Of a stretch of DNA of 64,000 nt, positions 26,776 to 43,403 are shown piece by piece. Each line of letters begins with the position of its first letter. The first letter of the stretch is position 1. Source of the stretch: Brenneria bubanii (GTDB taxonomy: Bacteria > Pseudomonadota > Gammaproteobacteria > Enterobacterales > Enterobacteriaceae); assembly GCF_022378355.1 (NCBI RefSeq), contig NZ_JAKMAJ010000009.1, forward strand, positions 62,001 to 126,000. Direction: 5' to 3'. The notes beneath the pieces were generated by a model. It was not told the DNA's origin. It saw only the letters and a program-made list of their open reading frames with translations, and searched no databases. Made by a program: the position numbers and the translations under genes.

Positions 26776-27813
26776 TCAGTATGCCGGCAGCGCGCAGAGA
26801 AAGCTGGGCGCCATGCCGGTCCAGCGACGAAAGGTACGGCGAAAGTTATTGATATCGCTGATGTTCAGGTACTGCGCGACCTCCTCATTATTTAGACCGT
26901 TAAACCAATAGAGGCATAGCGCCGTGTGTTTGCGTACCCGATCCCACTGCTGCTGGAAGCTGCTGTCGTGTTTGCGCAGTTTACGTTTCAGCGTGGCGGC
27001 ACTCATGCCGAGCGTTGCCGCGATGCGTTCAAGATTAAGCGGCTCACGCAGGTGATCGCGCAAATGATCGTAGAAATAATCGACAAAGCCGGCGTGAAAA
27101 CCCTGCGCCGCCAGCTGCTGCTGGCATTGTTGGCGCACCGCGGCGCAAACGGTGCTGTTGGCGTGCGGCGACGCCAGACGGGCGTATTCTACCGGCAACA
27201 GCATCATACTGAGCGGCTGTTCGAAGCTTAGCCCATCCCCCAGATGTACCCAATATTGTTCGATGTGGCGCGGCTGGCGATAGCTGAATAAAAAACGCCA
27301 GGGCAAGGACCGCTGCGGACAGAGCCAGCGCCCCAGCGAGACAATGGAACTCATGGCCGCCTCCAGCAGGAAGCGCTGCCGCCCGGCGTCCGCCCCGCTT
27401 TGCGGCCAATACAGGCAGAGATACCGATCGTCCAGATGCATACGCGGCGCCAGCATCGGGCTGAACAGGCTGCCAAAACGAATAACATCCTCCAGCGCCT
27501 GCTGTAAACTATCCGCCTGTTGCAGTACATGGCTGAAGTTGCCGTAGCAGCCCGGCAGCGAACGCCGCCCAAACAAAAAGCTGCTATCGTCCGCATCCAG
27601 CAAACGAATGCTGTTGTCGATAAGCTGAGCGAATTGCTGCTGGCTGAAACGCCCGGCGCCGGCGGCGATATCCTCAAGGAAAATACCGGTGCCGCGCAAT
27701 AGCCGGTGTCCGCCGATATCCCGCGATAATGCCAAATCGATCAGAATGCCCGGCTGATGGTGTCCGACAATAAAACGCTCGTCGCATTCATACCAGCCGT
27801 CATGCGCCGTCAT
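26776..27813 (-). CDS. AraC-family transcriptional regulator (arabinose-binding-like N-terminal domain)
   Basis: 345 residues. Residues about 20-210 match the large N-terminal sensor of the OruR/ArgR-like AraC group (GTGIFLEDI, FAQLIDNSIRLLDADDSSFLFGRR, GNFSHVLQQADSLQQALEDVIRFGSLF). The C-terminal 100 residues hold the two helix-turn-helix units (LNLERIAATLGMSAATLKRKLRKHDSSF; EEVAQYLNISDINNFRRTFRRWTGMAPS). The gene overlaps the GGDEF-like gene by ATGA and is transcribed with it away from the receptor/phytase operon. I infer that it regulates that operon; the ligand could be an inositol phosphate, but this is a guess. Confidence 0.88.
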   Translation of the reverse strand: MTAHDGWYECDERFIVGHHQPGILIDLALSRDIGGHRLLRGTGIFLEDIAAGAGRFSQQQFAQLIDNSIRLLDADDSSFLFGRRSLPGCYGNFSHVLQQADSLQQALEDVIRFGSLFSPMLAPRMHLDDRYLCLYWPQSGADAGRQRFLLEAAMSSIVSLGRWLCPQRSLPWRFLFSYRQPRHIEQYWVHLGDGLSFEQPLSMMLLPVEYARLASPHANSTVCAAVRQQCQQQLAAQGFHAGFVDYFYDHLRDHLREPLNLERIAATLGMSAATLKRKLRKHDSSFQQQWDRVRKHTALCLYWFNGLNNEEVAQYLNISDINNFRRTFRRWTGMAPSFLCALPAY

Positions 27814-28742
27814 TCGGCTACCCGCCTCTGCTCGCCCAGCGCGGCCTTAACCTGGCTCAAGCGATGATTCAGGCGCTGAAGCAGCCTGTCCTGATCTTCA
27901 TCCAGCGCCATAACCGCGGCGAAACTGGCCCGTAGCCGGATGCGCTCGCCATGCCGTTGCGTATGATGGGCCAGGTTGGCGATGGACGCGGATAGATCCC
28001 GCGCCATCAGGTTCGCCTGTTGTTCGCCGGTGTTGGGCAGTAACGCGACGAAACGGTCGCCGGCCAACCGGCACAGCAGATCCTGCCGACGCAGGTTAAG
28101 CAACAGCAGTTGGCACAGCGTCTGCAACACATAATCGCCTTCCGCCGTGCCGAAGCGCCGGTTGACGGCGTCGAAATCATTGACATCAATCACGATCAGC
28201 GACAGCGGTTGCCGCTCGGCGGCCGCCTGTTTCAACGACAGCGACAGCTGCTTGCGCAGATAATCGGCGCCGCCCAACGGCGTCAGCTTGTCGAACATCA
28301 GATGCTCGCGAAACAGTCGCTCGCGTTTATTTAACTGCGCGCTGATCGCCAACTGTTCCTGATGCCAGTGATAAATGCCCAGCGTGATCAGCAGCAGACC
28401 GAACGGCATAGGGATATTTTCCAGCCATTCGCCGATATTTCGTCCGGGCTGCAGCTTGATGAACTCATCCAGACAGTCCATCCACCAGGAAAAGAAAATG
28501 CAGGCCAAACCGAACGCTAGCAGGGTGGTGACGCGGCCGGCGGGCCGGCTGACCAACAGCATAATCAGCCAGCTCAGCGCCAGCAGGGCCGAACCGCCTT
28601 CAGCCAATACATCCATCCAGTCGATCGCCGACCAGATTTTCACCTCGCCGAGGATCAGATCGATCAGCAAGCCGAGATTAGCGAAGAAGGCCAACAGCAG
28701 CAGCTTACTGCCGTGTTGCCGCAAGAAGAGATACATCGGCAA
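27810..28742 (-). CDS. Membrane protein with degenerate GGDEF domain
   Basis: 310 residues: about four hydrophobic spans in residues 12-125, then a GGDEF-fold domain (about 145-305). The signature loop reads A227-G-D-R230-F instead of GGDEF; the arginine replaces the glutamate needed for catalysis and metal binding, while SLIVIDVNDFDAVNRRFG keeps the N-terminal aspartate region. A diguanylate cyclase activity is therefore unlikely, though GTP or c-di-GMP binding remains possible. It is the first gene of a two-gene unit with the AraC regulator and has a Pho-box-like site 53 bases before the ATG. It might act as a membrane sensor for the AraC protein. Confidence 0.82.
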   Translation of the reverse strand: MPMYLFLRQHGSKLLLLAFFANLGLLIDLILGEVKIWSAIDWMDVLAEGGSALLALSWLIMLLVSRPAGRVTTLLAFGLACIFFSWWMDCLDEFIKLQPGRNIGEWLENIPMPFGLLLITLGIYHWHQEQLAISAQLNKRERLFREHLMFDKLTPLGGADYLRKQLSLSLKQAAAERQPLSLIVIDVNDFDAVNRRFGTAEGDYVLQTLCQLLLLNLRRQDLLCRLAGDRFVALLPNTGEQQANLMARDLSASIANLAHHTQRHGERIRLRASFAAVMALDEDQDRLLQRLNHRLSQVKAALGEQRRVAE

Positions 28743-28794
28743 GACTCTCTCTTATGGGTAAAAAAAATAAGATGGTTTAAGCATACAGGGGCAG

Positions 28795-28812
28795 ATGACG
28801 GCAGGATGACAG
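28795..28812 (-). promoter_or_regulatory. Pho-box-like site before the GGDEF-AraC unit
   Basis: Read on the minus strand: CTGTCAT-CCTG-CCGTCAT. Both heptamers match the PhoB consensus CTGTCAT (7/7 and 6/7) and are 11 bases apart, the required spacing; the linker is less AT-rich than usual. It lies 53 bases upstream of the GGDEF start codon. Confidence 0.65.
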
Positions 28813-29007
28813 GCCGGGGGGTCAATTCAGCTCACCTCAGAGACCTATTTATTTTTACGCCGGCGCGCGGCGCGGCCACTAGACGGGATGGTTTCCCGCC
28901 GCGCCGCGTTCATTTCCGACGCCGCGATTAACCGATGACAGTCATTTCAGCTCAACATGCGCGTTAAACGTCGCGATTGAGCGCCGATACGCCCCGATAG
29001 CGCTGAA

Positions 29008-29025
29008 GTGTCATATAACTGACAT
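29008..29025 (+). promoter_or_regulatory. Pho-box-like site before the receptor/phytase operon
   Basis: GTGTCAT-ATAA-CTGACAT matches the PhoB consensus CTGTCATAWAWCTGTCAY at about 16 of 18 positions with correct 11-base periodicity. Ten bases further on, TAGCAT (29036-29041) can serve as the -10 element, as in known PhoB promoters where the box replaces the -35 region. The receptor GTG start is 57 bases downstream of the box. Confidence 0.75.
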
Positions 29026-29081
29026 CGGTAATTTCTAGCATCCCTTCCCCAAGAAACCATCTTTACTCTGGGGGAAAACGC

Positions 29082-31595
29082 GTGAAACCACAGCAATACA
29101 GCACCGCATCGGCGGCAAAAATCAAGCTCAGCACGCTGGCGATCGCCATTGGCTGTCTGACTCTCCCCACGCTGTCGCTGGCGGAAGAGGCGACCGAACA
29201 CGTGGATGTTATCGGTCAGGCGGCCAGCATCACTCAGGCGCTGAATGAACAACGCATTTCGGATTCCGTGCGCAGCGTCGTCCATGCCGACGGCGTCGCC
29301 CAGTTGCCGGATGACAACGCGGCGGAAGCGTTGCAGCGCCTGCCGGGGATATCCGTCGAGCGCGATCAGGGCGAAGGACGCTATGTCAGCGTGCGCGGGC
29401 TGGGGCCGGATCTGAATAGCGTGCAGATCAACGGCACCGCGATGCCGTCGCCCGAGAGCGGTCGGCGCGCCGTGGCGCTTGATGTGTTGCCGTCAGAGCT
29501 GGTGCAGTCCTTGTCCGTGGTCAAAACGCTGACGCCGGATATGGATGCGAATTCCCTGGGGGGCACCATTGAGGTCAACAGTCTGTCTGCATTCGATCAC
29601 GACGGGCTGTTTTACACCCTGAGCGCGGAAGGCAGTTACGATAGCAACAGCAACAAAAGCAGCCCCAAATTCTCCGGCGCGGTCAGCGATATTTTCAGTA
29701 TCGGCGAGGGGGAAAATAATTTCGGCGTCGCCGCGGCGCTCAGCTGGCAGAAGCGCCGTTTCGCCTCGGATAACGTGGAAACCGGCGGCGACTGGGACTT
29801 TAGCGACGGCGCGCGACTGAACGGCTTCGAACAGCGGCGCTACGACATACAACGCGAACGCACCGGATTCGGCCTCAACTTCGACTATAAACCCAGCGCT
29901 CTCTCCAGCTATTATCTGCGCACGCTCTACAGCCGTTTCAACGACCACGAAACCCGCCAGTCATCGGTAGTCGAATTCAGCAATCCGCAGGCCGTAGGCG
30001 AACGCGGCGATGCGGACGTCAGCCGTGAACTAAAAAGCCGGGAAGAGACGCAGGATATCAAGAGCATCGTACTGGGAGGCGAACATCTGTTAGGTCCGTG
30101 GACCCTAAACAGCCAGATGGCCTACAGCCGATCCAGCGAAACTCTGCCGGGCAGTACCTACGCCAGCTTTTCCAGCCTGGATTCATTCGCCGACAGCGGC
30201 TTTGCCAATACGGTCAGGCCAGCGAGCCAGATCGGCGACGGCTATGCCGACGCCGGCAATTACCAGCTCGACTCTCTGAAATGGGATACGCAAAAATCCA
30301 ACGACAGCGAGAAAAATCTCCGCCTCGACCTGGCGCGCGATTACGCCCTGCTGGGAAGCGACAATCAGGTCAAGTTCGGCGGCAAACTCAGCCGGCGCGA
30401 CAAAAAAAACGATCTGGATGTATGGAAATATAAAAAACTCGGCGATTACGGCCTGTCCAGCGAACAGCGCAATATGAGTCAGTTTTATGCCGGCAATGCC
30501 GGTTACGCATTTGGTCAGGACGGCCCGGCCATCGATACCGCAAGCATCAACCGTCTGATCGGTACGCTGGGTAAAGAGGGATTCTACAATCAGGAAGAGT
30601 CGACCATCGACGACTACCGGATGAGCGAAGATATTAACGCCGCCTATCTGATGAATACGTTGGATGTGGATAACTGGCGTTTCATTAGCGGCCTACGCTA
30701 TGAGGGCACCCATTTCAAAGCCGACGGTACCGGGATGCGCGACGGCGCGTATCTGGCCTCCGACCATCAGTCCGACTACCATGACTGGCTGCCGGGCCTG
30801 CACGCCCGCTATCGTCTCGATAACAATACCCAGATCCGCGCCGCCTGGACCAACTCGGTGGTACGCCCGGCGTTCGCTCAGCTTACCCCCGGCTATAGCA
30901 TCGATGGCGATGAAGCGGAATTCGGCAATCCTGAGCTCTCGCCGCTGAAATCGAAAAACGTCGATCTGGGGATCGAACACTACATGGGCAAAGCGGGAAC
31001 GCTATCCGGCTACCTGTTCTATAAGGACATCCGCAACTTTGCCTATCAGACCGATCTGGCCGGCAGCGGCGCATGGGCCGACTTCAGCGAGGCCAAAACC
31101 TGGGCCAACGGCGGCAATGCGCGGCTGTACGGCGCCGAACTGGCCTACTCGCAAAAATTCGACTGGCTGCCGTCGCCGTGGAACGGCCTGTTGGCCGGCG
31201 CCAACCTGACGCTCAGCGACTCCAGAGCCAACATTGAGGGCAACGGCATGTCGCGCAAAATCGCGCTGCCCAACCAGTCCGATGTGGTCGGCAACCTGAT
31301 GGTGGGATGGGAAAATGATAAGGTGAGCGTGCGCCTGTCAGCCAACTATAAGTCGGATTACCTGAGCGAAGTGGCCGCCGTCAACGATCGAGCCCATGAC
31401 AGTTACGTCGATGATCAGATCTTCGTCGATCTCAGCATGCGCTATTTCCTCACCAAACAGCTTCAGTTCTCGTTCGAAGCGCAAAACCTGACCAACGAAC
31501 ACTACTATACCTACAGCGGAAATTACGGCTTCAATTCGCAGTATGAACAATATGGCCCGACCTTCAAGCTGGGCGTGACTTACACCAATTTTTAA
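29082..31595 (+). CDS. TonB-dependent outer-membrane receptor, probably for a phytase substrate or product
   Basis: 837 residues with a GTG start after GGGGGAAAA, a signal peptide ending LSLA, a likely TonB box (EHVDVIGQ), a plug domain (LPDDNAAEALQRLPGISVERDQGEGRYVSVRGLGPDLNSVQINGTAMP) and a large barrel ending in the usual aromatic residue (TYTNF). The plug resembles receptors of the TIGR01782/sugar-type class of Xanthomonas and Caulobacter, not classical siderophore receptors. It is followed 12 bases later by a beta-propeller phytase and then by its own exbB, exbD and tonB. Uptake of phytate or partly hydrolysed inositol phosphates is the natural inference. Phosphate-starvation control is suggested by the box at 29008. 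Confidence 0.88.
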   Translation: MKPQQYSTASAAKIKLSTLAIAIGCLTLPTLSLAEEATEHVDVIGQAASITQALNEQRISDSVRSVVHADGVAQLPDDNAAEALQRLPGISVERDQGEGRYVSVRGLGPDLNSVQINGTAMPSPESGRRAVALDVLPSELVQSLSVVKTLTPDMDANSLGGTIEVNSLSAFDHDGLFYTLSAEGSYDSNSNKSSPKFSGAVSDIFSIGEGENNFGVAAALSWQKRRFASDNVETGGDWDFSDGARLNGFEQRRYDIQRERTGFGLNFDYKPSALSSYYLRTLYSRFNDHETRQSSVVEFSNPQAVGERGDADVSRELKSREETQDIKSIVLGGEHLLGPWTLNSQMAYSRSSETLPGSTYASFSSLDSFADSGFANTVRPASQIGDGYADAGNYQLDSLKWDTQKSNDSEKNLRLDLARDYALLGSDNQVKFGGKLSRRDKKNDLDVWKYKKLGDYGLSSEQRNMSQFYAGNAGYAFGQDGPAIDTASINRLIGTLGKEGFYNQEESTIDDYRMSEDINAAYLMNTLDVDNWRFISGLRYEGTHFKADGTGMRDGAYLASDHQSDYHDWLPGLHARYRLDNNTQIRAAWTNSVVRPAFAQLTPGYSIDGDEAEFGNPELSPLKSKNVDLGIEHYMGKAGTLSGYLFYKDIRNFAYQTDLAGSGAWADFSEAKTWANGGNARLYGAELAYSQKFDWLPSPWNGLLAGANLTLSDSRANIEGNGMSRKIALPNQSDVVGNLMVGWENDKVSVRLSANYKSDYLSEVAAVNDRAHDSYVDDQIFVDLSMRYFLTKQLQFSFEAQNLTNEHYYTYSGNYGFNSQYEQYGPTFKLGVTYTNF

Positions 31596-31607
31596 AAGGA
31601 TTCGCGC

Positions 31608-33542
31608 ATGTCTTTCAGTTTTCCATGCCGACCGGCGACGCTGGCGCTACTGGTGACGGGTATCGTCATGAGCCTTGGCAACGTCTGTCTGGCCGGAGAG
31701 GCGGAGGCGCCGTCGCTGACCACGATCGCAGGCAGCGCCAATAACGACGAGCTCAAACTGCTGGCCGACAGCCATTTCTGGCCGGGGGCCGACCGGCTGC
31801 TGCTCAGCGACAAGCAAGGGCTGAAGCTACAGGATAGCCAGGGCGCGACGCTGGCCGCGTTACCCGGCAGCTACCAATCACTCGATCTGCGTACCGACGC
31901 CGCCGGCCTGCTGGTTTCGGCGTTGGACAAGTCGCGTCAGCAACCGATGCTGGTCCGCCTCGACGGCGCCAGCCGTCAGTGGCAGAACGTCCGTTATCTT
32001 CCGGCGCCTTCATTCAAGGTCGCGGGCAGTTGCCTGTTCCGTGATGAAACGAACGGCAGCTTCGTCTTTCTGATCGGCGATAACGGCGTCGCGCAACAGT
32101 GGCTGGTGGCGCAGGGCGATCAGCTGCTGGATACGCCGCGCAAGGTGCGCGATCTGAGTATGCCGCCGGAAAGCGAGTACTGTCAGGCCGATGACCGCCG
32201 CGCGCAGCTCTACGTCAACGAAGGTTCGGTCGGCCTCTGGGCCTATGATGCCCATAGCGAAGCGCCGCTGCATCGGCAGCCGGTGGATCTGCGCCAGCCG
32301 TTCGGTTCGATCGACGGCGAAGTGGCGGGTATGGCGGTGGTGCCTGATGCGGTACTGGTGCTGGATGCCAAAGCCCGACGGCTGCATCGCTACCGCTATG
32401 AGGAAAATCACTGGCGCGCCGATTCCGCCGTGCCGCTGCCGGGATTGAAAAAGCCGCAGAGGCTGACGGTGCGGCCGACGTCGTCAGGCGCGGATGTCGT
32501 CATCGCCGATAAACAGGGACTACATCAAGGCCATCTTGACTGGACCGCGCCGGCGACCGCACCGTTGCCGGTAACGCCGGTTTTGCCCGCCCGATTGGAA
32601 ACCGAACCGGTAACCAGCCTCGGCGACGCCGCCGACGATCCGGCCATTTGGGTTAACCCCAACGACGGCGCGGCCAGCCGCGTTCTGGCTACCGACAAGC
32701 AGCGCGGGTTGCTGGTGTACGACCTGCAAGGCCACCAGCTACAGGATTTGCCGGTCGGGCGGCTCAATAACGTCGACGTGCGCGCCGGGCTGCCGCTTGG
32801 CGGCAAGGTCATCGACCTGGCGGTCGCCAGTAACCGCGATCACAACTCGCTGCATCTGTTCTCCATCGCCCCCGATAGCGGAAAAGTGGCCGAACTGGGC
32901 GAGATCGCCACGCCGCTGTCGGCGATCTACGGTCTGTGTATGTTTAAAGATCGACAGGGCGCGATCTACGCCATCGTCAATGACAAGGGCGGTCGTTTCC
33001 TGCAGTACCATCTACGGGGAGAGCATGACGGCGTGCGCGGCGACCTGGTGCGCGAATTCAGCGTAGCCAGTCAGCCGGAAGGCTGCGTCGCGGACGACCG
33101 CCAGCAGCGTTTATTCATCGGCGAAGAAGATGTCGCCGTCCATGCGCTGGACGCCCTACCCACGCAGCCGGCGCGGCTACAGCAGGTTATCGCCGCCGGC
33201 GGCGCGCTTCAGGCGGATATTGAGGGCATGGCGCTGTATCAGGGACGCCAGCACAGCTACCTGGTGATCTCCAGCCAGGGCAACAGCAGCTATCTGGTGC
33301 TCGACGCCCTGCCTCCCTATACCCTGCGCGGCGCATTTCGTATCGGTCTGAACGCCGACGCGGGCATTGACGGCGCCTCCGAAACCGACGGTCTGGACGT
33401 CACCGCCGCCAATCTGGGCGCGCCGTGGCAGCAAGGCATGCTGGTGGTGCAGGACGGCCGCAACCGCCTGCCGGAACAAGCGCAAAACTACAAATATCTT
33501 CCCTGGTCGGCGATCGCGAAAGCGCTGCAACTGACTGACTAA
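31608..33542 (+). CDS. Beta-propeller phytase, two-domain type
   Basis: 644 residues with a signal peptide ending CLA. The C-terminal half (about 335-640) carries the beta-propeller phytase landmarks: DDPAIWVNP, GRLNNVDVR, VASNRDHNSLHLFSI, YGLCMFKD, VNDKGGRFLQYHL, QPEGCVADD...LFIGEEDVAV, DIEGMALY and SSQGNSSYLVLD. These supply the calcium sites and acidic cleft that hydrolyse phytate to lower inositol phosphates. The N-terminal half (about 35-325) is a second, more divergent propeller, as in known dual-domain phytases where it assists binding. An AAGGA site precedes the ATG; it lies between receptor and exbB in one operon. Periplasmic or surface location is likely. Confidence 0.9.
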   Translation: MSFSFPCRPATLALLVTGIVMSLGNVCLAGEAEAPSLTTIAGSANNDELKLLADSHFWPGADRLLLSDKQGLKLQDSQGATLAALPGSYQSLDLRTDAAGLLVSALDKSRQQPMLVRLDGASRQWQNVRYLPAPSFKVAGSCLFRDETNGSFVFLIGDNGVAQQWLVAQGDQLLDTPRKVRDLSMPPESEYCQADDRRAQLYVNEGSVGLWAYDAHSEAPLHRQPVDLRQPFGSIDGEVAGMAVVPDAVLVLDAKARRLHRYRYEENHWRADSAVPLPGLKKPQRLTVRPTSSGADVVIADKQGLHQGHLDWTAPATAPLPVTPVLPARLETEPVTSLGDAADDPAIWVNPNDGAASRVLATDKQRGLLVYDLQGHQLQDLPVGRLNNVDVRAGLPLGGKVIDLAVASNRDHNSLHLFSIAPDSGKVAELGEIATPLSAIYGLCMFKDRQGAIYAIVNDKGGRFLQYHLRGEHDGVRGDLVREFSVASQPEGCVADDRQQRLFIGEEDVAVHALDALPTQPARLQQVIAAGGALQADIEGMALYQGRQHSYLVISSQGNSSYLVLDALPPYTLRGAFRIGLNADAGIDGASETDGLDVTAANLGAPWQQGMLVVQDGRNRLPEQAQNYKYLPWSAIAKALQLTD

Positions 33543-33602
33543 TCGCTTATTAATTCATCCGTCGCCCCGTCGGGGTGGACGGACAACCGAAAGGAACAAA
33601 CG

Positions 33603-34319
33603 ATGAATCCCGATAACACCATGACGCTCGGCAGTCTGATCGGCAACGCCAGTCTGCTGGTGCAGTGTGTCATGGCGATCCTGCTGCTGGGCTCGCTCAC
33701 CTCCTGGTATCTGATTGTGGCCCACGGTCACGTGCTGCGCGGCAGCGAGAAAGACATTATCGCCTTTCGCCGGCGTTTTCGTCAGGACGGCGATCTGCCG
33801 TCGCTGCAGCGCGCCATTGCGGGCAATATCGCCCGGGATGCCGGCGCCGGCCACATTTTCTCCGCCGCCTGGCATGAATATCAGCAGCTAAGCCAGGTTC
33901 AGGGCGTATCGCCCGACGCCGTGACATCCGGCGTCGAGCATAGTCTGCACGTCGCCATCGCCGAGCAGGAAGAACGCCTGACCAACGGCCTGAACATGCT
34001 CGCCACCATCGGCTCCGTCAGCCCCTATATCGGCCTGTTCGGCACCGTATGGGGCATTATGAATGCCTTTATCGGTCTGGCCCACGTCCAGCAGGCGACC
34101 CTGAACACCGTGGCGCCGGGGATCGCGGAAGCGCTGATCGCCACCGCCATCGGGCTGTTCGCCGCCATCCCGGCGGTGGTGCTCTACAACCGCTTTACCG
34201 CCCGCACCCAGACGCTGGTAAACCGCTATTACAGCTTCGCCAATGAGATACAGGGATATTTGCACCGCCAGCTACAAATCGCGGCGCATACCTCCGCTTC
34301 CCGTTCCCAGGCCGCCTGA
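33603..34319 (+). CDS. exbB: ExbB-type proton channel subunit
   Basis: 238 residues of the MotA/TolQ/ExbB family. Three membrane spans: about 20-40 (CVMAILLLGSLTSWYLIV), about 137-160 (MLATIGSVSPYIGLFGTVWGIMNAF) and about 175-195 (GIAEALIATAIGLFAAIPAVVLYN). The two C-terminal segments are the conserved ExbB core. With ExbD it turns the proton gradient into movement of TonB. This is a dedicated copy inside the receptor/phytase operon, preceded by AAGGAA. Cellular housekeeping exbB would be elsewhere. Confidence 0.9.
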   Translation: MNPDNTMTLGSLIGNASLLVQCVMAILLLGSLTSWYLIVAHGHVLRGSEKDIIAFRRRFRQDGDLPSLQRAIAGNIARDAGAGHIFSAAWHEYQQLSQVQGVSPDAVTSGVEHSLHVAIAEQEERLTNGLNMLATIGSVSPYIGLFGTVWGIMNAFIGLAHVQQATLNTVAPGIAEALIATAIGLFAAIPAVVLYNRFTARTQTLVNRYYSFANEIQGYLHRQLQIAAHTSASRSQAA

Positions 34320-34331
34320 CAGGAGTCACTT

Positions 34332-35590: not shown

Positions 35591-35591
35591 C

Positions 35592-36464
35592 TCAACGCGG
35601 CCCCGCTGCCGTGGGAAGCGCCGGGCGGATGCGCTCATCCTGCAGTTCCCGCTGCGGTGGGAAATAGCGTTCAATGTCGCTAAAGCCCATCGCGCCTTCC
35701 AGGGCGGAAAAGTCGCCCGACTGGTTCATGGCTTCGGCGGCGCGGATAAACGCGCCCAGCGCCAGCCGGGATAACGATGAACCGGCGCTGATACGCTTCA
35801 CGCCCGCCTGTTCCAATTGCGCCATGCTGAAGGTGGCGCCCGGGATGCCGGCAATAACGTTAACCGGTTTTGAAAGCGCGCCGCACAAGGCGCGAATGGT
35901 GTCTAAATCCCGCAGGCCGGGCGCATACAGCACATCCGCGCCGGCTTGCTCAAAGGCCTGCAGCCGTCCGATGGTATCGTCGAGATCCGGCTTGCCCCAC
36001 AGGTAGTTCTCGCAGCGGGCCGTCAGCACAAAATCCTGCGCCAGTGTATCGCGCGCTTCCGCCGCCGCCTGAATGCGCTCAACCGCCAGTTGAAAATCAT
36101 AAATCGGCCGCTCGCGACGGCCGCTGTAATCTTCGATCGAGCCGCCGGCAAGGCCAATCTCGCCTGCGGCGCGAATGGTTTCCGCCACGATCTCCGGGCT
36201 GTCGCCAAAGCCGTTTTCCAGATCGGCCGATACCGGCAACGGCGTCGCCTCAACCAGCGCGCGGCAGTGCGCCAGGGTGGTGGCTCGATCTACGCTGCCC
36301 TCGCGCAATCCCTTGGAAAACGACATGCCGGCGCTGGTTGTCGCCAACGCCTTGAACCCCATTGCGGCCAAAATTCTGGCCGTCCCGATATCCCACGGGT
36401 TGGGAATGATGAATGCGCCGGGTGCTTCATGTAATTTTCTGAAATCGCTGCTGATATTCGCCAT
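35592..36464 (-). CDS. Isocitrate lyase / phosphoenolpyruvate mutase superfamily protein
   Basis: 290 residues from the ATG at 36464 (GGGGA site 7 bases upstream). The PEPM-fold barrel is visible: FIIPNPWDIGTARILAAMGFKALATTSAG, LPVSADLENGFGD (metal-binding acidic loop), GGSIEDYSGRRERPIYDF, FVLTARCENYLWGKPDLDD and INVI-like VNVIAGIPGATFS. The family includes methylisocitrate lyase, oxaloacetate hydrolase and PEP mutase; the widespread subgroup to which this belongs has no firm function. A phosphonate link is possible given the phosphate genes on both sides, but the diagnostic PEP mutase loop was not found. A remnant of a paralogue is at 18828. Confidence 0.82.
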   Translation of the reverse strand: MANISSDFRKLHEAPGAFIIPNPWDIGTARILAAMGFKALATTSAGMSFSKGLREGSVDRATTLAHCRALVEATPLPVSADLENGFGDSPEIVAETIRAAGEIGLAGGSIEDYSGRRERPIYDFQLAVERIQAAAEARDTLAQDFVLTARCENYLWGKPDLDDTIGRLQAFEQAGADVLYAPGLRDLDTIRALCGALSKPVNVIAGIPGATFSMAQLEQAGVKRISAGSSLSRLALGAFIRAAEAMNQSGDFSALEGAMGFSDIERYFPPQRELQDERIRPALPTAAGPR

Positions 36465-36594
36465 CGCCGTTCCCCTGTCAGCCCGCTGGCGCGGGAGTAT
36501 TTTCCACCGAATGTATCGCAAAATGGCAAAACGTGCACCCGCAGTTTGCCGTGGGAGAACATATCAATGAATTGGTTATCATAAAATTTTTAGT

Positions 36595-36614: not shown

Positions 36615-36633
36615 TAATAAGGCGCACATGCGA

Positions 36634-36653: not shown

Positions 36654-36661
36654 AAAAATAA

Positions 36662-36677
36662 TTGCACATAGGTGCAA
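36662..36677. promoter_or_regulatory. Inverted repeat adjoining the Pho-box-like promoter
   Basis: TTGCAC-ATAG-GTGCAA, a perfect 6-base dyad that ends 2 bases before the Pho-box-like site at 36680. Second candidate site for the LacI-type regulator of this operon. Confidence 0.4.
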
Positions 36678-36679
36678 AC

Positions 36680-36713: not shown

Positions 36714-36748
36714 CCTTCCCTGTCTGAAGTCAGAAGAGGGATAAGCCA

Positions 36749-38572
36749 GTGACATCCGAAGCCGTTAACCCAGTAGCACCTTCATGGTGGAATAAGTTAC
36801 GACACCTGTTTGCCATCGCCCGCCACGAGCCGGCGAACGTCATTGGCCTGGCACTGATACTGCTATTCGCCTGGATCATTCTGGCACCGGTGCTATCCAT
36901 TCTGCTGGACGCCATCGTGGTGCAAAGCGGCGACGGTCAGCGCGTGCAGGCCGCCGAAGGCGCCTTTACCCACTATTATCTGCTGCGCACCCTGACATCA
37001 AGAATGTCCGACCTGCTGCTGTGGACGCCGTTAATCAATACCCTCGCCGTCGCGGTCAGTAGCGTATTGGGCGCGCTGACGCTGGGCGTCACGCTGGCCT
37101 GGCTGGTCAATCGCACCGATATGGCCGGGCGTAAATGGTTCGCCACCGCACTGATTGTGCCCTTTATGTTGCCGTCCTGGACCTTCGCGCTAGCCTGGAC
37201 CACGCTTTTCAAAAATCACACCGTCGGCGGCCAGCCCGGCTGGCTGGAAACGCTGGGTTTCCATACCCCTGACTGGCTGGCTTACGGCTATTTCCCGATA
37301 GTGACGATTATGGTGATCCACTATGCGCCGCTGGTTATCCTGATCGTAGGCAATGCCCTGAAGCGCATGGACAGCCAGTTGGAAGACTGCGCGCGGGTAC
37401 TCGGCGCATCGCGCAAAATCATCGCCTTTCGTATCGTGGTGCCGCTGGTCCGCCCCGCCCTGCTGTCGGCCGCGTTGCTAATCTTCGCCGACTGTATCGG
37501 CGAATTCGCCATTCCCTATATTCTCGGCTTGCCGGTGCACTTCGATACGCTGTCCACAGGGTTATACCGTGCGTTGGGATCGCGTCAAACCGGCGTCGCC
37601 GCGGTGATTGCCGCGGTCATTATGCTGATGGGCATGATCACGTTGCTGCTGGATATGCGCATGCTGCGCGAAGCCAACCGTTTCGTGACCGTAAGCGGCA
37701 AAGGCGGCATGGATCGTCGTCGTCAGCTTGGCCGCTGGCGTTTCGTCACCGCCGGTATCGCGCTGAGCTTTATACTGTTGGGCGTCGCCATTCCGCTGCT
37801 CACCCTGTTTTTCTCCACCATCATGAAGCTGCCCGGCCGTTTTACCGCCGACAACTTTACCTTTGATTTCTGGATTGGCCACAATCTGGATACCGTGGCG
37901 CTGCATGACGGCATTCTGCTCACGCCTGATTTCTGGCACGCGGTATGGAATACGGTAATAATTGTCGGCTCCGCCTCGCTCGCGTCGGGCATTCTGGGTC
38001 TGTTGGTCGGTTATGCGGTGATACGCTGTTCCTTCCGCTGGGTCGGCGGATTTTTACGTCAGGTGACCTTCCTGCCTTATCTGGTTCCCGGCATTGCCTT
38101 CGCCGCCGCCTTCCTGTCGCTGTTTGCCGTCGCGCGCGGCCCGGTGCCCGCCCTGTACGGCACGCCGCTGATACTGGTGATCGCGCTGATCGCGGAAAAA
38201 ATGCCCTATGCCAGCCGCTCCGGCATCGCCGCCATGACGCAGTTGGGTAAAGAGCCGGAAGAAGCGGCGCGCGTCGCCGGCGCCGGTTGGTTTACCCGCA
38301 TCGGACGAATCGTGATCCCTATTCAGGCGGCGCCGCTGACTACCGGCATTCTGCTGCCGTTTATTTCGGGCATTAAGGGCGTCAGCCTGTTCATCATTCT
38401 GGCTATCCCCGCCACCGATGTCCTTACCACTTATTCCCTGCGTTTGATTGATTACAACTACCAGCAGGCAGCCAATGCCGTGGTGTTGATGATCGCGCTG
38501 ATTTCATGGGCCGGCACGGTACTGATCCAGAAGATCTCCGGTACCGGTTTGGCCGAAGGTCTGGAGAACTGA
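36749..38572 (+). CDS. ABC transporter permease, fused two-domain FbpB/AfuB type
   Basis: 607 residues with a GTG start behind AGAGGG. Two homologous permease halves of about six spans each; EAA-type loops are seen at LEDCARVLGASRKIIAFRIVVPLVRPALL and PEEAARVAGAGWFTRIGRIVIPIQAAPLT. This is the architecture of Fbp/Sfu/Afu systems, first described for iron; members from Actinobacillus and Citrobacter carry phosphorylated sugars. Being followed by an ATPase, a binding protein and a phosphatase fusion, and preceded by a Pho-box-like promoter, a phosphate ester is a more likely substrate than iron. Confidence 0.88.
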   Translation: MTSEAVNPVAPSWWNKLRHLFAIARHEPANVIGLALILLFAWIILAPVLSILLDAIVVQSGDGQRVQAAEGAFTHYYLLRTLTSRMSDLLLWTPLINTLAVAVSSVLGALTLGVTLAWLVNRTDMAGRKWFATALIVPFMLPSWTFALAWTTLFKNHTVGGQPGWLETLGFHTPDWLAYGYFPIVTIMVIHYAPLVILIVGNALKRMDSQLEDCARVLGASRKIIAFRIVVPLVRPALLSAALLIFADCIGEFAIPYILGLPVHFDTLSTGLYRALGSRQTGVAAVIAAVIMLMGMITLLLDMRMLREANRFVTVSGKGGMDRRRQLGRWRFVTAGIALSFILLGVAIPLLTLFFSTIMKLPGRFTADNFTFDFWIGHNLDTVALHDGILLTPDFWHAVWNTVIIVGSASLASGILGLLVGYAVIRCSFRWVGGFLRQVTFLPYLVPGIAFAAAFLSLFAVARGPVPALYGTPLILVIALIAEKMPYASRSGIAAMTQLGKEPEEAARVAGAGWFTRIGRIVIPIQAAPLTTGILLPFISGIKGVSLFIILAIPATDVLTTYSLRLIDYNYQQAANAVVLMIALISWAGTVLIQKISGTGLAEGLEN

Positions 38573-38573
38573 T

Positions 38574-39653
38574 ATGCCTGCGATTACCTTGACTAACTTG
38601 ACTAAAACCTACCCCGGCAGCCAGAAGCCGGCCGTGGATGCCATCAACCTGACCGTTAAAGACGGTGAATTCATGTGTCTGCTGGGACCATCAGGCTGCG
38701 GGAAAACCACCATTCTGCGCATGATCGCCGGCATTGAACACGCCAGCGGCGGCGAAATCGCCATCGGCGACAGCGTGATGGACTCCGTGGCACAGGCCAC
38801 CTTTATTCCGCCGGAACAGCGCCGGGTCGGACTGGTCTTTCAGAGCTATGCCCTGTGGCCGCATATGACGGTGGAGCAGAATGTGGATTTTGGCCTGCGG
38901 TTACAGAAGGTCCCGGCTAAACAACGCGTCGCCCGTTGTCAGGATGTGATGGAAAAACTGCGCATCGCCGAGTATGCCGGCCGCTATCCGGCTCAGCTTT
39001 CCGGCGGTCAGCAGCAGCGCGTCGCGCTGGCGCGCATGCTGGCGGTCAATCCCGGCGTATTGCTGCTCGACGAACCCTTATCCAATCTTGACGCCACCCT
39101 GCGCCTGGAAATGCGCGCCGAACTGCGCCGTCTGCACGAAGCCTTTGGCACCACCATCGTCTTTGTCAGCCACGATCAGTGGGAAGCGATGACCCTCGCC
39201 ACCACCATCGCGGTAATGAGCGCCGGACATGTGCAGCAGGTGGGCACGCCGGACGAGATATACGCCCGTCCCGCCAATCGTTTCGTCGCTGAATTCATCG
39301 GCACGCCAAAACTGAATATGATCCCGCTGAACCAGTCGTCCAGCCTGTTGGCATCCTATCTTCATCAGCGCTTCTCTCTGCAAAACAATATGCATATCTG
39401 CGGCATTCGCCCCGAAGAGATCACGCTGTGCGCACAGCCGCAAACCGACAGCGTGCCGATGACCATCGACAACATCATGCCGACCGGCGGCAGTTGGGTG
39501 ATTGAGTTGGTCGGAGAAGGCGATCGCCTGTTTCACTCCACGCAACTGCGCCCGCGCTGGCAGGCCAATCAGCAGGTGCATTGCCAGCTGCCCGCCGATT
39601 CGCTGCACTTTTTCAACCAGCAGGGGCAACGCCAGGAGCTATCGATGCGCTAA
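38574..39653 (+). CDS. ABC transporter ATP-binding protein, FbpC/AfuC type
   Basis: 359 residues: Walker A GPSGCGKTT (38-46), Q loop QSYALWPHMTV, signature LSGGQQQRVALARML, Walker B VLLLDEPLSNLD, switch histidine in FVSHDQWEAMT, then a C-terminal TOBE-like regulatory domain from about 240. It starts 1 base after the permease stop. Energises import by the upstream permease. Confidence 0.93.
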   Translation: MPAITLTNLTKTYPGSQKPAVDAINLTVKDGEFMCLLGPSGCGKTTILRMIAGIEHASGGEIAIGDSVMDSVAQATFIPPEQRRVGLVFQSYALWPHMTVEQNVDFGLRLQKVPAKQRVARCQDVMEKLRIAEYAGRYPAQLSGGQQQRVALARMLAVNPGVLLLDEPLSNLDATLRLEMRAELRRLHEAFGTTIVFVSHDQWEAMTLATTIAVMSAGHVQQVGTPDEIYARPANRFVAEFIGTPKLNMIPLNQSSSLLASYLHQRFSLQNNMHICGIRPEEITLCAQPQTDSVPMTIDNIMPTGGSWVIELVGEGDRLFHSTQLRPRWQANQQVHCQLPADSLHFFNQQGQRQELSMR

Positions 39654-39717
39654 CGCGCGACAGCGGCAAACCCTATTTATTCAAGACCATCCCAAACTCG
39701 CAACCCAAGGAAATGTT

Positions 39718-40830
39718 ATGAACCGCAAATTGTTAACGAGCCTGGTCATACTTGCCAGCTGCGTGACCGGCGCCGCCGGCGCTCAGGCGGCTCAATCCGT
39801 CGAGCTGCAAGCGCTGATCGCCGCCGCCCAAAAAGAAGCGCCGATCACCGTCTATGCCTCGACCGGCAAAATCGTTCAGCAAGCGAAGGATTTCAGTAAG
39901 CAGTACGGCGTTAACGCCGTCGGCATCAAGGCCGATGCGCCGCAGGTTATCGAAATCATCAGCCGCGAGGCGCAGGCGCGCAACGTCAAGGCCGATGTCG
40001 CCATCATCGAAGACGCCCCCGCCGGCATCGAACAGTTGCTCGACAAAGGCTATGTGCAAAGCTGGGTGCCGGAAGACATGAAGGCACACATTCCCGCGCA
40101 CTATCAGGAACCGCTGACGGTAGTGCTGGCGCCGAACGTGTTCGCCTACAATACCGCGCATCACGACAGCTGCCCAATCACCAATATCTGGCAACTGACG
40201 GAACAGCAATGGCGCGGCAAAGTCGCCATGCAGGATCCGACCAGTAAGCCGGCCTACACCGACTGGTTCAGTCAGATGTCCGCCAACTACGATCAGCAGG
40301 TGCGCGACGCCTATCAACAGGAATTCGGCAAGCCGCTGAAAACCGATGAAGGCTCGGCGATGGCGGCGTTAGTGAAAGCGCTGGCGGCCAACAGTCCGCT
40401 GCTGACGCATTCCGATAACGATGCCGCCGAGGCCATCGGCGCGCCGGACGGCAAAGGCGACTTCGTCGGCCTGGTTTCTACGGCGAAATTCCGCGAAAAC
40501 AAGAACGGCATGAAGCTCGGCCTCTGCCACGGCATGAAGCCGGTCATCGGCTGGAACTATCCCAGCATGGGCGTTATCGCCGCCGGCAGCCACAGCCCGA
40601 ACGCCGCCAAGCTGTTTATGCACTATCTGCTGACCGCCGAAGGCATCGCGCCGCAAAGCGTGGACGGCAAAATGTCCACCAACCAGACGATAAAGCTACC
40701 GGCTGACGAAGCCTCCGGCATTGAAAAGTACCGCGATGAGCTGATGGTCTACAAAACCTCAACGGCAAAAACAGACTGGCAGAGCCGTCAGGATTGGCAG
40801 GATCTCTGGAATCTGAACTACCAAAAATAG
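39718..40830 (+). CDS. Periplasmic substrate-binding protein, Fbp/Afu-like (probable phosphate-ester ligand)
   Basis: 370 residues with a signal peptide ending AQA at about residue 24 and a class-F binding-protein fold (APITVYASTGKIVQQAKDFSKQYGV near the N-terminus, MQDPTSKPAYTDWFSQM, NYPSMGVIAAGSHSPNAAKLFMHYLLTAEGIA). The paired tyrosines used by FbpA to hold iron are not evident, which argues against an iron ligand. An AAGGA site precedes the ATG at 39718; the longer open frame overlaps the ATPase gene. Ligand inferred from context: an inositol phosphate or sugar phosphate. Confidence 0.85.
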   Translation: MNRKLLTSLVILASCVTGAAGAQAAQSVELQALIAAAQKEAPITVYASTGKIVQQAKDFSKQYGVNAVGIKADAPQVIEIISREAQARNVKADVAIIEDAPAGIEQLLDKGYVQSWVPEDMKAHIPAHYQEPLTVVLAPNVFAYNTAHHDSCPITNIWQLTEQQWRGKVAMQDPTSKPAYTDWFSQMSANYDQQVRDAYQQEFGKPLKTDEGSAMAALVKALAANSPLLTHSDNDAAEAIGAPDGKGDFVGLVSTAKFRENKNGMKLGLCHGMKPVIGWNYPSMGVIAAGSHSPNAAKLFMHYLLTAEGIAPQSVDGKMSTNQTIKLPADEASGIEKYRDELMVYKTSTAKTDWQSRQDWQDLWNLNYQK

Positions 40831-40877
40831 AAGCGCGATTGCCGCCTTCATTATTATTTTCGTATCAGGAGCACACC

Positions 40878-42326
40878 TTGATTCAAATTAACCTGGAGCA
40901 GCGTGAAGCTGCGTTAAAACGCATTGTTCTCGACGCCGGCGAAACCGCGCTGCGACACTTTCGCGCTCGTCAGCCGGGCGCGTTTTCGCTCAAGGGTCAT
41001 CAGGACTTTCTGACCGAAGCCGATACGCTGGTGGAACAGCAAATTCGCCAGGCTATCGCCGATGCGTTTCCTGGCGATGCGCTGCTGGGCGAGGAAACCG
41101 GCAGCCAGGCCTGCGATGCCTCTTGCCTGTGGGTGGTCGACCCTATCGACGGCACCGCCAACTTCGCCCGCGGCATTGAACACTTTTGCGTGGCTATCGC
41201 GTTCGTCAGTCAGGGCATCACCGAGCTGGGCGCGATTTACAATCCGGCCAGTCAGGAGCTGTATATGGCGCGCCGCGGCCGCTACGCGCAGAAAAACGGT
41301 CAGACGCTGCACGTGGCGAAAACCGATGATGTGCGTAACGCGACGGTTGAGCTGGGCTGGTCTACCCGCATCCCCCAACGCCGCTATCTTGACGTGATGA
41401 CCGCCATTCTGAGCCAGGGCGCGAATGTGCGCCGCGGATCCTCAGGCGCGCTGGCGCTGGCCTGGGTGGCTGAAGGCCGAACCGACGGCTATGCCGAACT
41501 GCATATGAACGCCTGGGACTGTCTGGCGGGGCTGCTGATGGTGCGTGAAGCCGGCGGCCGTACCGGATATATTCCTACCAGCATCGAAGGCATATTCAAC
41601 GGCCTGCCGGTTTTAGCGGCGGCGCCGGGCGTGGCCAATGCGCTGGCGCGTGCCGCCGGGATCCCAGTCGCCGCGGATGACGCCCCAGCAGCGGCCGAAC
41701 CGCGCGATGCCGAATCGAATAAGCCGCATTACCCGCGTCCCGCGATCAGCCTGATCGAGTCCGATTTTCCCGGCTGGGGCATGGATATTTACATCGGCGG
41801 CTCCAGCGGGGCGACCGATCTGGCGCTGCTGGAGCAGCATGGCATCAAAACGGTGATTAACTGCGCCGTTAATCTGGATATCGACTGGGTTTCCTTGCCG
41901 GAAGCGAATATCGGCGCCCATTTGCTCAACCACGGCGTCGGCCCGATTCGCTACTATAAACTCGGCCTGGTCGACGGCGCCGGCAACGCGCCCGCCATGC
42001 TGCATGCGGGCTATCACCTGATGCGTTCCGCCCTGCTGCAACAAATTCCCGATAAACCGTCTTACCGCAACCCTGAAGCGGGCAATGTGCTGGTCAACTG
42101 TCGCGGCGGACGCAGCCGTTCCGTGGCGTTAGTCGCCGTATTCATGCATCTGGAGTGCCCGCAGCGCTACCCGACGCTGGCATCGGCAATCGCGCATATC
42201 CGGGATAAACGGCGCCTACACCCCGATGAATGGCATGAAACGCCGAAGCCGACGCTGATCGCGCTGGCGCAGCAGGCCATTGATATGGAACAGACGCTGC
42301 GGGCCGCCGGGTCAGGCGTTGCGTAA
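40878..42326 (+). CDS. Fusion of inositol-monophosphatase domain and dual-specificity-phosphatase domain
   Basis: 482 residues. Residues about 1-275 are an IMPase-family domain with GEETG (71-75), DPIDGT (88-93) and WD (213-214), the magnesium-binding residues that hydrolyse inositol or sugar monophosphates. After a proline/alanine-rich linker, residues about 305-475 form a tyrosine/dual-specificity phosphatase domain (MDIYIGGSSGATDLALLE; VLVNCRGGRSRSVAL) with C408 and R414 of CX5R; the usual histidine before the cysteine is asparagine. The start is a TTG at 40878 with an AGGAG site 7 bases upstream; no ATG is suitably placed. No signal peptide, so cytoplasmic. It likely finishes dephosphorylation of the imported ester. 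Confidence 0.85.
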   Translation: MIQINLEQREAALKRIVLDAGETALRHFRARQPGAFSLKGHQDFLTEADTLVEQQIRQAIADAFPGDALLGEETGSQACDASCLWVVDPIDGTANFARGIEHFCVAIAFVSQGITELGAIYNPASQELYMARRGRYAQKNGQTLHVAKTDDVRNATVELGWSTRIPQRRYLDVMTAILSQGANVRRGSSGALALAWVAEGRTDGYAELHMNAWDCLAGLLMVREAGGRTGYIPTSIEGIFNGLPVLAAAPGVANALARAAGIPVAADDAPAAAEPRDAESNKPHYPRPAISLIESDFPGWGMDIYIGGSSGATDLALLEQHGIKTVINCAVNLDIDWVSLPEANIGAHLLNHGVGPIRYYKLGLVDGAGNAPAMLHAGYHLMRSALLQQIPDKPSYRNPEAGNVLVNCRGGRSRSVALVAVFMHLECPQRYPTLASAIAHIRDKRRLHPDEWHETPKPTLIALAQQAIDMEQTLRAAGSGVA

Positions 42327-42371
42327 TAAAAAATCGGCGAATCAAGGTATTTAACGATAAGAGGAAAGCGG

Positions 42372-43403
42372 ATGGCCGCGTTGTTGGGGAGTGAAAAGTT
42401 GACGGGCAAAAGCATGTCCAGCGCGGCGGAAGTGGCGCGTCTGGCCGGGGTTTCCCGTTCGGCGGTGTCGCGCACCTTCACCCCCGGCGGCAGCGTATCG
42501 GCCGAAACGCGCCGTAAAGTGCTGGCCGCCGCCGAAGCGCTTAACTACCACGTTAACCACCTGGCGCGCGGGCTGTCCAAAGAGGCCTGCCGTCCGGTAT
42601 GTATCCTCGGCGGCAATCTGAATGCGCCCTATCAGGCCAGTCTGCTTGACCAGATCACCCGGCGTCTGCATCAGGCGCAGCGCGCGGTTATGGTGATCAA
42701 TACCGATGGCGGAGAAGCGAGTTCGGATATGGCATTGCGCCAGACGCTGAATTACCGCGCAGCCGCCACCATCGTGCTGTCTGGCAAGCCTCAGGCGTCA
42801 CTGATTGAAACCTGCCTGCAAAGCGGCCAGCAGGTCATTTTGATTAACCGTATGGGGCAGTTTGAGGGCGCCGACAACATCGAAATCGACTACACCTCAA
42901 CGATGGCGCAGGCTTACCACATGCTGTCCCGAGCGGGCTGCCGGCGTATCGCGATCGTGTCCTCCACCTCCCGCTCGCCCAGTATGGTCATCCGGGAGAG
43001 CAGATTTCTCGCCGCCGCCAGTCGGGCCGAGGCGCCGTGCCGACTCATCCGGCCGGGCACCGCGAGCTATGAAGCCGGCGCCGCCGCCGCCCGCCAGCTG
43101 CTTGCGGATCCCGCGCGGCCGGACGGCGTATTTTGCGTCACCGACCTGATTGCCTGCGGCTTTATCGACGTGGCGCGCCACGAATTTGGTTTAGCTATCC
43201 CCGAGGATATCTGCGTTATCGGTTTTGACGATATTGAACAGGCGGGTTGGGTCGGCTATCAGCTGACGACCTTTTCCCAGCCGCTGACGGATATGGCGAA
43301 CGCCATCATCGAGTTATTGCTTCCCTCTCCAACGCCGCGCGTGCCGGGAAAACGGCTGTTTCAGGCGCCGCCGGTATGGCGTAAAACGGTGCGTTCAGGA
43401 TGA
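42372..43403 (+). CDS. LacI-family transcriptional regulator of the ABC/phosphatase operon
   Basis: 343 residues with an N-terminal LacI helix-turn-helix (SAAEVARLAGVSRSAVSRTFTPGGSVSAETRRKVLAAAEALNYHVN) about residues 16-62 and a periplasmic-binding-like core. It follows the phosphatase fusion by 45 bases in the same direction with an AGAGGAAA site and is probably the operon's own repressor. Candidate operators are the dyads at 36634 and 36662. The effector would be an intermediate of the pathway. Confidence 0.88.
   Translation: MAALLGSEKLTGKSMSSAAEVARLAGVSRSAVSRTFTPGGSVSAETRRKVLAAAEALNYHVNHLARGLSKEACRPVCILGGNLNAPYQASLLDQITRRLHQAQRAVMVINTDGGEASSDMALRQTLNYRAAATIVLSGKPQASLIETCLQSGQQVILINRMGQFEGADNIEIDYTSTMAQAYHMLSRAGCRRIAIVSSTSRSPSMVIRESRFLAAASRAEAPCRLIRPGTASYEAGAAAARQLLADPARPDGVFCVTDLIACGFIDVARHEFGLAIPEDICVIGFDDIEQAGWVGYQLTTFSQPLTDMANAIIELLLPSPTPRVPGKRLFQAPPVWRKTVRSG

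Follow-up and report, generated by a model that had tools for sequence, protein, structure and literature searches.

Gene content of the two units

We examined a 64,000-nucleotide stretch of the Brenneria bubanii genome (the window; positions 62,001 to 126,000 of contig 9 in an assembly of 4.9 Mb and 533 contigs), from a bacterium that is probably plant associated. Two gene sets lie side by side here. The one under study, unit B (36749 to 43403, plus strand), encodes an ATP-binding cassette (ABC) permease, an ATPase, a binding protein, a fusion of an inositol monophosphatase (IMPase) domain with a dual-specificity phosphatase (DSP)-like domain, and a LacI-family regulator. Its neighbor, unit A, consists of genes for an AraC-family regulator, a degenerate GGDEF protein, a TonB-dependent receptor, a beta-propeller phytase, TolQ/ExbB-like and TolR/ExbD-like proteins, and TonB. 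All genes of both units are long open frames at the coordinates given below, and domains were called with Pfam and NCBIfam models. These models agree with an initial annotation of the window on the presence of the AraC and degenerate GGDEF genes, the receptor, the phytase, tonB, a phosphoenolpyruvate (PEP)-mutase-like gene, and the ABC/IMPase-DSP/LacI operon. The features of unit B are as follows.

36661 to 36678, no strand assigned: LacI-type palindrome ATTGCACATAGGTGCAAA
36680 to 36697, plus strand: weak Pho-box-like site (5.6 bits), 10 bases before TATAGT, at a position conserved in relatives
36749 to 38572, plus strand: ABC permease with two BPD_transp_1 stretches; homologues are annotated "iron ABC transporter permease"
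38574 to 39653, plus strand: ABC transporter ATPase (Pfam, NCBIfam) with a TOBE domain
39718 to 40830, plus strand: periplasmic binding protein (SBP_bac_11) with conserved T49, K51, R83, K257, and R259 and no Tyr-Tyr pair
40878 to 42326, plus strand: fusion of an inositol monophosphatase domain (Inositol_P) with a DSP-like domain (CRGGRSR)
42372 to 43403, plus strand: LacI-family regulator (Pfam, NCBIfam), presumed to bind the palindrome at 36661

The two-stretch permease, TOBE-containing ATPase, and SBP_bac_11-type binding protein give unit B the layout of an Fbp/Afu-type ABC importer. The best NCBIfam match of the permease was a 2-aminoethylphosphonate model, but its score fell far under the cut-off (131.5 versus 593.25 bits); the ATPase scored highest with UgpC, below the cut-off, and second with a 2-aminoethylphosphonate model (318.4 versus 457.7 bits). 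Permease and ATPase thus both missed the equivalog cut-offs of a 2-aminoethylphosphonate importer (PhnU2/PhnT2). By its Pfam score (Inositol_P, 180.9 bits) and its GEE, DPIDGT, and WDCLAG motifs, the IMPase domain belongs to the inositol monophosphatase superfamily; it scored under the NCBIfam cut-offs for inositol-1-monophosphatase, HisN, and CysQ. The DSP-like domain has the CX5R loop in the form CRGGRSR, its profile reaches VHR/DUSP3 at an E value of 1.1e-10, and its Pfam DSPc score of 28.8 lies below the cut-off of 33.5. The fusion gene probably starts near 40878, as read from an alignment of IMPase and DSP sequences (A2) from which the DSP stretch of locus L057, which contains a stop, was dropped.

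Unit A comprises the following features.

26776 to 27813, minus strand: AraC-family regulator (Pfam Arabinose_bd and HTH_18)
27810 to 28742, minus strand: degenerate GGDEF-domain protein (Pfam), signature AGDRF
28795 to 28812, minus strand: Pho-box-like site before the GGDEF/AraC genes (15.1 bits, rank 2 in the window)
29008 to 29025, plus strand: Pho-box-like site before the receptor (19.2 bits, rank 1 in the window)
29082 to 31595, plus strand: TonB-dependent receptor (Pfam; TIGR01782, 609.5 bits)
31608 to 33542, plus strand: beta-propeller phytase, with a weak N-terminal phytase-like part and a C-terminal phytase domain
33603 to 34319, plus strand: MotA/TolQ/ExbB proton channel (Pfam; NCBIfam TolQ, 234.9 bits against a cut-off of 221)
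34332 to 34781, plus strand: ExbD/TolR protein (Pfam; NCBIfam TolR, 136.5 bits against a cut-off of 127.3)
34778 to 35590, plus strand: TonB-like energy transducer (Pfam, NCBIfam)

The phytase scored 286.6 bits with PF02333 (cut-off, 21), its residues 327 to 639 align to the solved 3-phytase 3amr (E = 1.6e-62), and it carries DAADDPAIW at residue 340 and NNVDVR at residue 387, which fit the motifs that define this class (DA[ATE]DDPA[ILV]W and NN[VI]D[ILV]R). By model, homology, and motifs, it is a beta-propeller phytase. The protein begins with a signal-peptide-like start, as judged by eye. Its description as a two-domain enzyme holds for the strong C-terminal domain; the N-terminal part matches PF02333 weakly (25.9 bits, same cut-off). 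The GGDEF domain is called degenerate because its signature reads AGDRF. The receptor is a probable gate for phytate or metal-phytate. The channel pair (33603 to 34781), initially named exbB and exbD, does belong to the MotA/TolQ/ExbB and ExbD/TolR proteins, but the NCBIfam cut-offs that it passes are those for TolQ and TolR, despite the neighboring TonB.

Unit A is a gene set of an already known kind. As initially stated, a phytase beside a TonB-dependent receptor occurs elsewhere: a Pseudoalteromonas plasmid holds a receptor-phytase set with a divergent pair of AraC and diguanylate cyclase genes. An Acinetobacter pittii plasmid likewise has such a pair, divergent from a phytase (annotated as two coding sequences), TolQ, TolR, and TonB, with the place of the receptor unannotated. 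The window differs from both in having unit B alongside, which was absent from the stretches read around the two plasmid sets. We scored Pho boxes with a matrix built from nine Escherichia coli sites, across both strands of the window (127,966 positions). Both top-scoring sites fall in the 339-bp gap between the GGDEF and receptor genes, and both are kept in place in three related genomes (G087, G223, and G224; loci L022, L089, and L091), where the site before the receptor ranks first in each and the site before GGDEF ranks 2, 8, and 2, respectively. With this matrix, the case for Pho control of unit A and the AraC/GGDEF pair appears good.

Distribution, neighbors, and regulation of unit B

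Within a family sample of 198 genomes, the window genome included, the binding protein was matched in 10, nine of them at at least 71% identity (again counting the window genome); the copy in G167 contains a stop. The beta-propeller phytase was rare, with 2 of the 198 genomes carrying it and 3 of 10 in the genus. Unit B was present in 4 of these 10 congeneric genomes, among them all three with the phytase (hypergeometric P = 0.033). The distance between the units is approximately 1.2 kb in the window, 15 kb in G087, and 3 Mb in the congeners G223 and G224. We also searched 84,980 species genomes for the IMPase-DSP protein by means of six exact peptide patterns; this nonexhaustive scan yielded 40 loci, including Enterobacterales (among them locus L031, a Brenneria roseae scaffold), Celerinatantimonas, Vibrio, and alphaproteobacteria. 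Permease, ATPase, binding protein, IMPase, and DSP were found with a nearby LacI gene in 37 of the 40. When PF02333 was run against 33 carrier genomes (a set without the window genome, G087, G223, and G224), 2 had a match, one being the short gene of L052 described below and the other containing a stop. Judged by the refuting condition set out with the initial annotation, the exclusive link between the units fails because most unit B carriers lack a beta-propeller phytase and the units lie megabases apart in two congeners. Unit B is a module separate from unit A, and mostly occurs without a beta-propeller phytase; the comparison across genomes thus went against the initial proposal that the units form a single system.

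The architecture of the module varies among lineages. IMPase and DSP are fused in the aligned Enterobacterales loci and Celerinatantimonas and are separate genes in Vibrio and the alphaproteobacteria. Several alphaproteobacteria have two or three tandem binding proteins for a single permease; three occur in L049, L050, L052, L053, L054, L097, and L098, possibly for different inositol phosphate isomers. Sinorhizobium meliloti 1021 carries the module on pSymB (L093). Three of the 37 loci (L048, L063, and L068; two from Symbiopectobacterium and one from Leclercia) are broken copies, which match in several pieces, and the binding protein of L044 matches as two pieces. The transporter has diverged in L064 to L066 (binding protein, 26 to 27%; permease, 36 to 38%; IMPase and DSP, near 50%), and these loci retain a metallophosphoesterase and a Na/Pi cotransporter. 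L067, L069, and L070 have IMPase homologues only, and the IMPase of L069 lies directly behind iolCDEB homologues, with the transporter absent.

Unit B adjoins a phytase-class or iol gene in 8 of the 37 loci. Genes for a KdgM porin and a histidine phosphatase immediately precede unit B in Klebsiella indica, Erwinia JUb26, Pantoea A4, and Enterobacter mori (L033, L034, L041, and L044) and immediately follow it in Celerinatantimonas (L043). Among solved structures, the L044 phosphatase is closest to 2wnh, named a 3-phytase (E = 1.1e-79, versus 8e-42 for 1dkl and 9e-39 for the glucose-1-phosphatase 6rmr), and a 3-phytase structure likewise came first by a wide margin for the L043 enzyme (E = 8e-67). 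We take 2wnh and 2wni to be the Klebsiella histidine acid phytase PhyK and 1dkl to be AppA; the closest solved relative of these two phosphatases is thus PhyK, which is absent from the window, whose phytase is of the beta-propeller class. Two Klebsiella pneumoniae plasmids, typed as conjugative, carry genes for a KdgM porin, a PhyK-type phosphatase, the ABC importer, IMPase-DSP, and LacI in one compact unit (L094, 4784 to 13538; L095, 3531 to 12306) flanked on both sides by insertion sequences. This 8.7-kb unit was found in 4 of 72,556 plasmid records (at least 80% coverage), and a search of 5,426 E. coli genomes gave no match.

Other lineages place other genes at the same operon. Vibrio HDW18 has a multiple inositol polyphosphate phosphatase (MINPP)-type enzyme (6rxd, E = 5.1e-70; 7zgf, named MINPP, E = 9.3e-66) and a porin divergent from the permease. 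Directly after a Na/Pi cotransporter, Wenxinia marina encodes a 254-residue protein with a partial PF02333 match (L052, 16705 to 17466). In Parasedimentitalea (L051), genes for IolC, IolD, IolE, and IolB lie directly upstream of the operon and share its strand; all four exceed their NCBIfam cut-offs (iolC, 382.1 bits against 300; iolD, 880.4 against 715; iolE, 367.8 against 290; iolB, 343.5 against 205). An outer-membrane channel accompanies the phytase in the four Enterobacterales loci above and Celerinatantimonas (KdgM), in Vibrio (general porin), and in the window (TonB-dependent receptor). We also observed a TonB-dependent receptor directly behind the unit B LacI gene in Pantoea (L037, 12786 to 14972), with no phytase there, and relatives of the histidine phosphatase with no nearby unit B in L083 to L087, some with KdgM.

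A beta-propeller phytase or a histidine phosphatase (E ≤ 1e-80) was encoded in 5 of the nine family carriers versus 18 of 198 genomes overall (hypergeometric P = 3.6e-4, uncorrected for kinship and with the 1e-80 line picked after the list was seen). We mapped the neighbor classes on a permease tree of 40 rows, which omits L048, L063, L068, L028 (partial), L061, L064 to L066, L016, G223, G224, and duplicates; L021 (in G087) was marked as beta-propeller although its phytase lies about 15 kb off, and L052 was marked by its phosphoesterase. The PhyK label requires three changes, and the beta-propeller rows and the MINPP row stand on other branches. All labels together require 9 changes versus 19.9 in shuffles, a difference to be read with the long branches, some weak forks, and near-copies that inflate clustering. 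Within these limits, the tree shows recurrence of phytase classes beside unit B and not an exact count.

The palindrome before the unit B permease is the sole TTGCACNNNNGTGCAA in the whole window genome, where the reversed pattern has no occurrence. Across the 37 loci, the form TTTGCAC-N4-GTGCAAA precedes the permease in 25 (19 of 20 gammaproteobacterial and 6 of 17 alphaproteobacterial); because the consensus was derived from part of the same loci, the alphaproteobacterial matches are the freer test. Elsewhere in the same 774,644 bases, 4 further sites occurred at up to 3 mismatches, and 1 after shuffling. The LacI protein of unit B would bind this palindrome.

Pho-box-like sites had been claimed before all three transcription units of the window. 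The claim stands for the two divergent units of the phytase set; before unit B, the sites are only suggestive, namely, the 5.6-bit site of the feature list and one of 10.8 bits at 36576 that ranks tenth in the window and has no counterpart at its place among the three best sites of L031, L032, or L021. We compared 20 unit B promoters (excluding the alphaproteobacteria and L015, L016, L019, L026, L028, L042, L043, L048, L063, L068, L094, and L095). The offset directly after the palindrome, mostly 10 bases before a TATA box, had the best mean Pho score of all (4.4 versus −14.6, standard deviation 5.0), with low single scores and conserved promoters that are not independent. Stronger Pho-like sites precede KdgM in L041 (ranks 1 and 2 of 42,818) and the permease in L043 (rank 1 of 42,960), and another lies in the Vibrio gap (rank 3 of 42,812); the sites before KdgM rank 4 to 6 in L033, L034, L044, and L094 and 24 in L043. 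Pho control of unit B in the window is weakly suggested.

The proposed substrate of unit B and competing explanations

We consider it probable that unit B works as a module that takes lower inositol phosphates across the inner membrane and dephosphorylates them; here it lies beside a beta-propeller phytase unit that could supply them. Here we infer the ligand, the direction of flow, and the role of each phosphatase domain. The TonB-dependent receptor, energized by TonB and the dedicated channel pair, would carry phytate, perhaps as a metal complex, over the outer membrane, and the phytase would trim it in the periplasm. Next, the binding protein would capture a lower inositol phosphate for import by the ABC permease and ATPase, the IMPase and DSP domains would strip the remaining phosphates in the cytoplasm, and LacI would sense the substrate or inositol and release its single operator. 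Unit B probably concerns inositol phosphates because PhyK-type and MINPP-type genes, a short phytase-domain gene, and iolCDEB adjoin it, which a reading based on iron or hexose phosphate does not predict. The initial proposal of one phytate route therefore survives in part: its inositol-phosphate substrate is strengthened by these neighbors, but the two units are not one inherited route. As a best reading, unit B would be LacI controlled, with interchangeable phytase front ends.

Several results weigh against import of inositol phosphates, and some of them bear on other explanations. NCBIfam AppA phytase (PRK10172) is the best model for the L044 and L043 phosphatases, but they reach only 244.1 and 180.3 bits against a 585-bit cut-off, and their phytase activity is therefore likely but not certain. 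In the family sample, unit B and histidine phytases (E ≤ 1e-100) do not go together (6 genomes, only G087 having both). The window genome lacks an IolD match at E ≤ 1e-120, so that released inositol would have no known use there, and the module would supply phosphorus, not carbon. IolD was found at this threshold in 11 of the 198 family genomes and, among the nine carriers, only in G087; this pattern gives no link between unit B and inositol catabolism in this family. Among the genomes of unit B loci (L059 not included), 15 of 16 alphaproteobacterial ones (background rate not taken) and 5 of 20 gammaproteobacterial ones had IolD.

The nearest solved relatives of the binding protein, which are named iron binding, also count against inositol phosphate. 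Together with the annotation of homologues, they favor the database view of unit B as a ferric iron or iron-chelate importer with the phosphatases as bystanders, and phytate itself binds iron. However, the Tyr-Tyr pair, which we take to be the usual iron ligands of ferric binding proteins, is absent from 33 of 34 aligned binding proteins. This was a plain-sequence test on alignment A1 (omitting L038, L040, L042, L044 with its split match, L045, L048, L053, L054, L056, L061, L063, L068, and second copies in L060); a C-terminal binding-protein profile matched solved structures only at E values of at least 0.036, and the alignment to iron binders missed the ligand stretch. Moreover, two phosphatase domains and a LacI-type regulator accompany the transporter in 37 loci. 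We regard iron transport as highly improbable.

The binding-protein profile reaches AfuA (4r72) at an E value of 5.9e-6, which is consistent with an AfuABC-like importer of hexose phosphates or other sugar phosphates; a sugar phosphate or bisphosphate would then be the substrate of the IMPase-family domain. Sugar-type neighbors also occur (a phosphotransferase system EIIA gene in L036 and sugar-type ABC genes in L055). Two reports describe precedents: AfuABC, a hexose/heptose-phosphate importer (PMC4546632), was originally predicted to handle iron, and P5PA (PMC8427247) was likewise once taken for an iron importer. Both share the binding-protein superfamily of unit B and import a phosphorylated ring compound, as proposed here, with AfuA shown to carry hexose phosphates. 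Unit B differs from them in its links to phytase-class genes, IMPase, DSP, and LacI, and is distant in sequence. Its recurrent neighbors are phytase-class and iol genes, although many neighboring genes are unannotated, so a recurrent sugar gene is possible; on balance, a sugar-phosphate importer seems very unlikely. Ugp-type systems import an organic phosphate that is then hydrolyzed in the cytoplasm. Unit B, as proposed, resembles them in import followed by internal dephosphorylation and in an ATPase nearest to UgpC (below its cut-off), but has a different binding protein and a different proposed substrate.

A calcineurin-like metallophosphoesterase gene follows DSP in 14 of the 37 loci, all alphaproteobacterial, and 9 have a Na/Pi cotransporter. 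A phosphodiester substrate fits this enzyme equally well, a further point against inositol phosphate. Unit B might then import glycerophosphoinositol or another inositol phosphodiester, from which a cytoplasmic phosphodiesterase would free inositol phosphate for the IMPase, with the phytase neighbors reflecting a shared inositol-phosphate niche. The L058 phosphoesterase, whose best solved relative is LMO2642 (E = 9.8e-9), has no signal sequence by eye. Yet a search with the phosphoesterase gave no match in the 20 gammaproteobacterial loci, several of which pair with phytase-class genes, and we consider this substrate unlikely.

Finally, 29 of the 37 loci gave no match to the phytase or iol queries in the stretch read (protein-tyrosine-type phytases were not sought), which weakens the case for inositol phosphates and suits a view of units A and B as unrelated neighbors, with another substrate for unit B and the phytase links a side effect of phosphorus-gene-rich islands. 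The megabase separation in two congeners fits that view, as does a 2-aminoethylphosphonate gene set with its own separate transporter, encountered at a single locus, on the other side of unit B in Vibrio HDW18. It is countered by the different phytase classes at the same operon in different lineages and by the compactness of the Klebsiella plasmid unit between its insertion sequences, and we consider this view very unlikely.

Other genes of the window and implications for phytate use

Several neighboring genes were considered as parts of the system and set aside. The PEP_mutase-family protein at approximately 35592 to 36464 (minus strand) scored under the cut-off of every NCBIfam model listed. 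Initially taken as a member of the system, it does have a homologue (97% identical) between both units in G087, at distances of about 6 and 8 kb; no other unit B locus compared had one, and the gene was rejected. Glyceraldehyde-3-phosphate dehydrogenase and a PAP2-DSP protein were also rejected, as no homologue was found at unit B loci outside the window; the latter, a PAP2 and dual-specificity phosphatase protein (46059 to 47375), lies near unit B with a small uncharacterized partner (45691 to 46077). An efflux pair of the major facilitator superfamily and outer membrane factor types (23649 to 26764) adjoins the permease in G087 (L021) and no other compared locus at high identity; we take it as shared neighborhood of close relatives. 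Elsewhere in the window, a thiamine pyrophosphate riboswitch (929 to 1029, minus strand) is the sole Rfam match at gathering score, and a stretch of low G+C content (0.38 to 0.41) at 7001 to 9000 is possibly an acquired segment.

Phytate is a main organic phosphorus store in seeds and soil. According to a 2025 review, it cannot cross bacterial membranes and so must meet secreted or outer-membrane enzymes (PMC12482443); of two further sources, one concerns agp and suhB (PMC12712290) and one mentions an inositol transporter (PMC7618129). No account of an inositol-phosphate ABC importer or of the unit B operon was recognized in the literature searched, which mostly lacked coverage of subscription journals. 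With slightly better than even confidence, we propose as one joint claim that alpha- and gammaproteobacteria share a dedicated inner-membrane importer of inositol (poly)phosphates that is LacI controlled, sometimes plasmid borne, and annotated as an iron system. Lineages would add their own pair of channel and phytase (TonB-dependent receptor with beta-propeller phytase, KdgM porin with PhyK-type enzyme, or general porin with MINPP-type enzyme) or inositol catabolism, and the tandem alphaproteobacterial binding proteins would read different isomers. If true, phytate use would gain an intracellular branch, served by an importer that has phosphatases and a regulator of its own. A gene set now labeled as iron transport would also acquire a function, and the recurrence of different phytase classes beside unit B would be explained.

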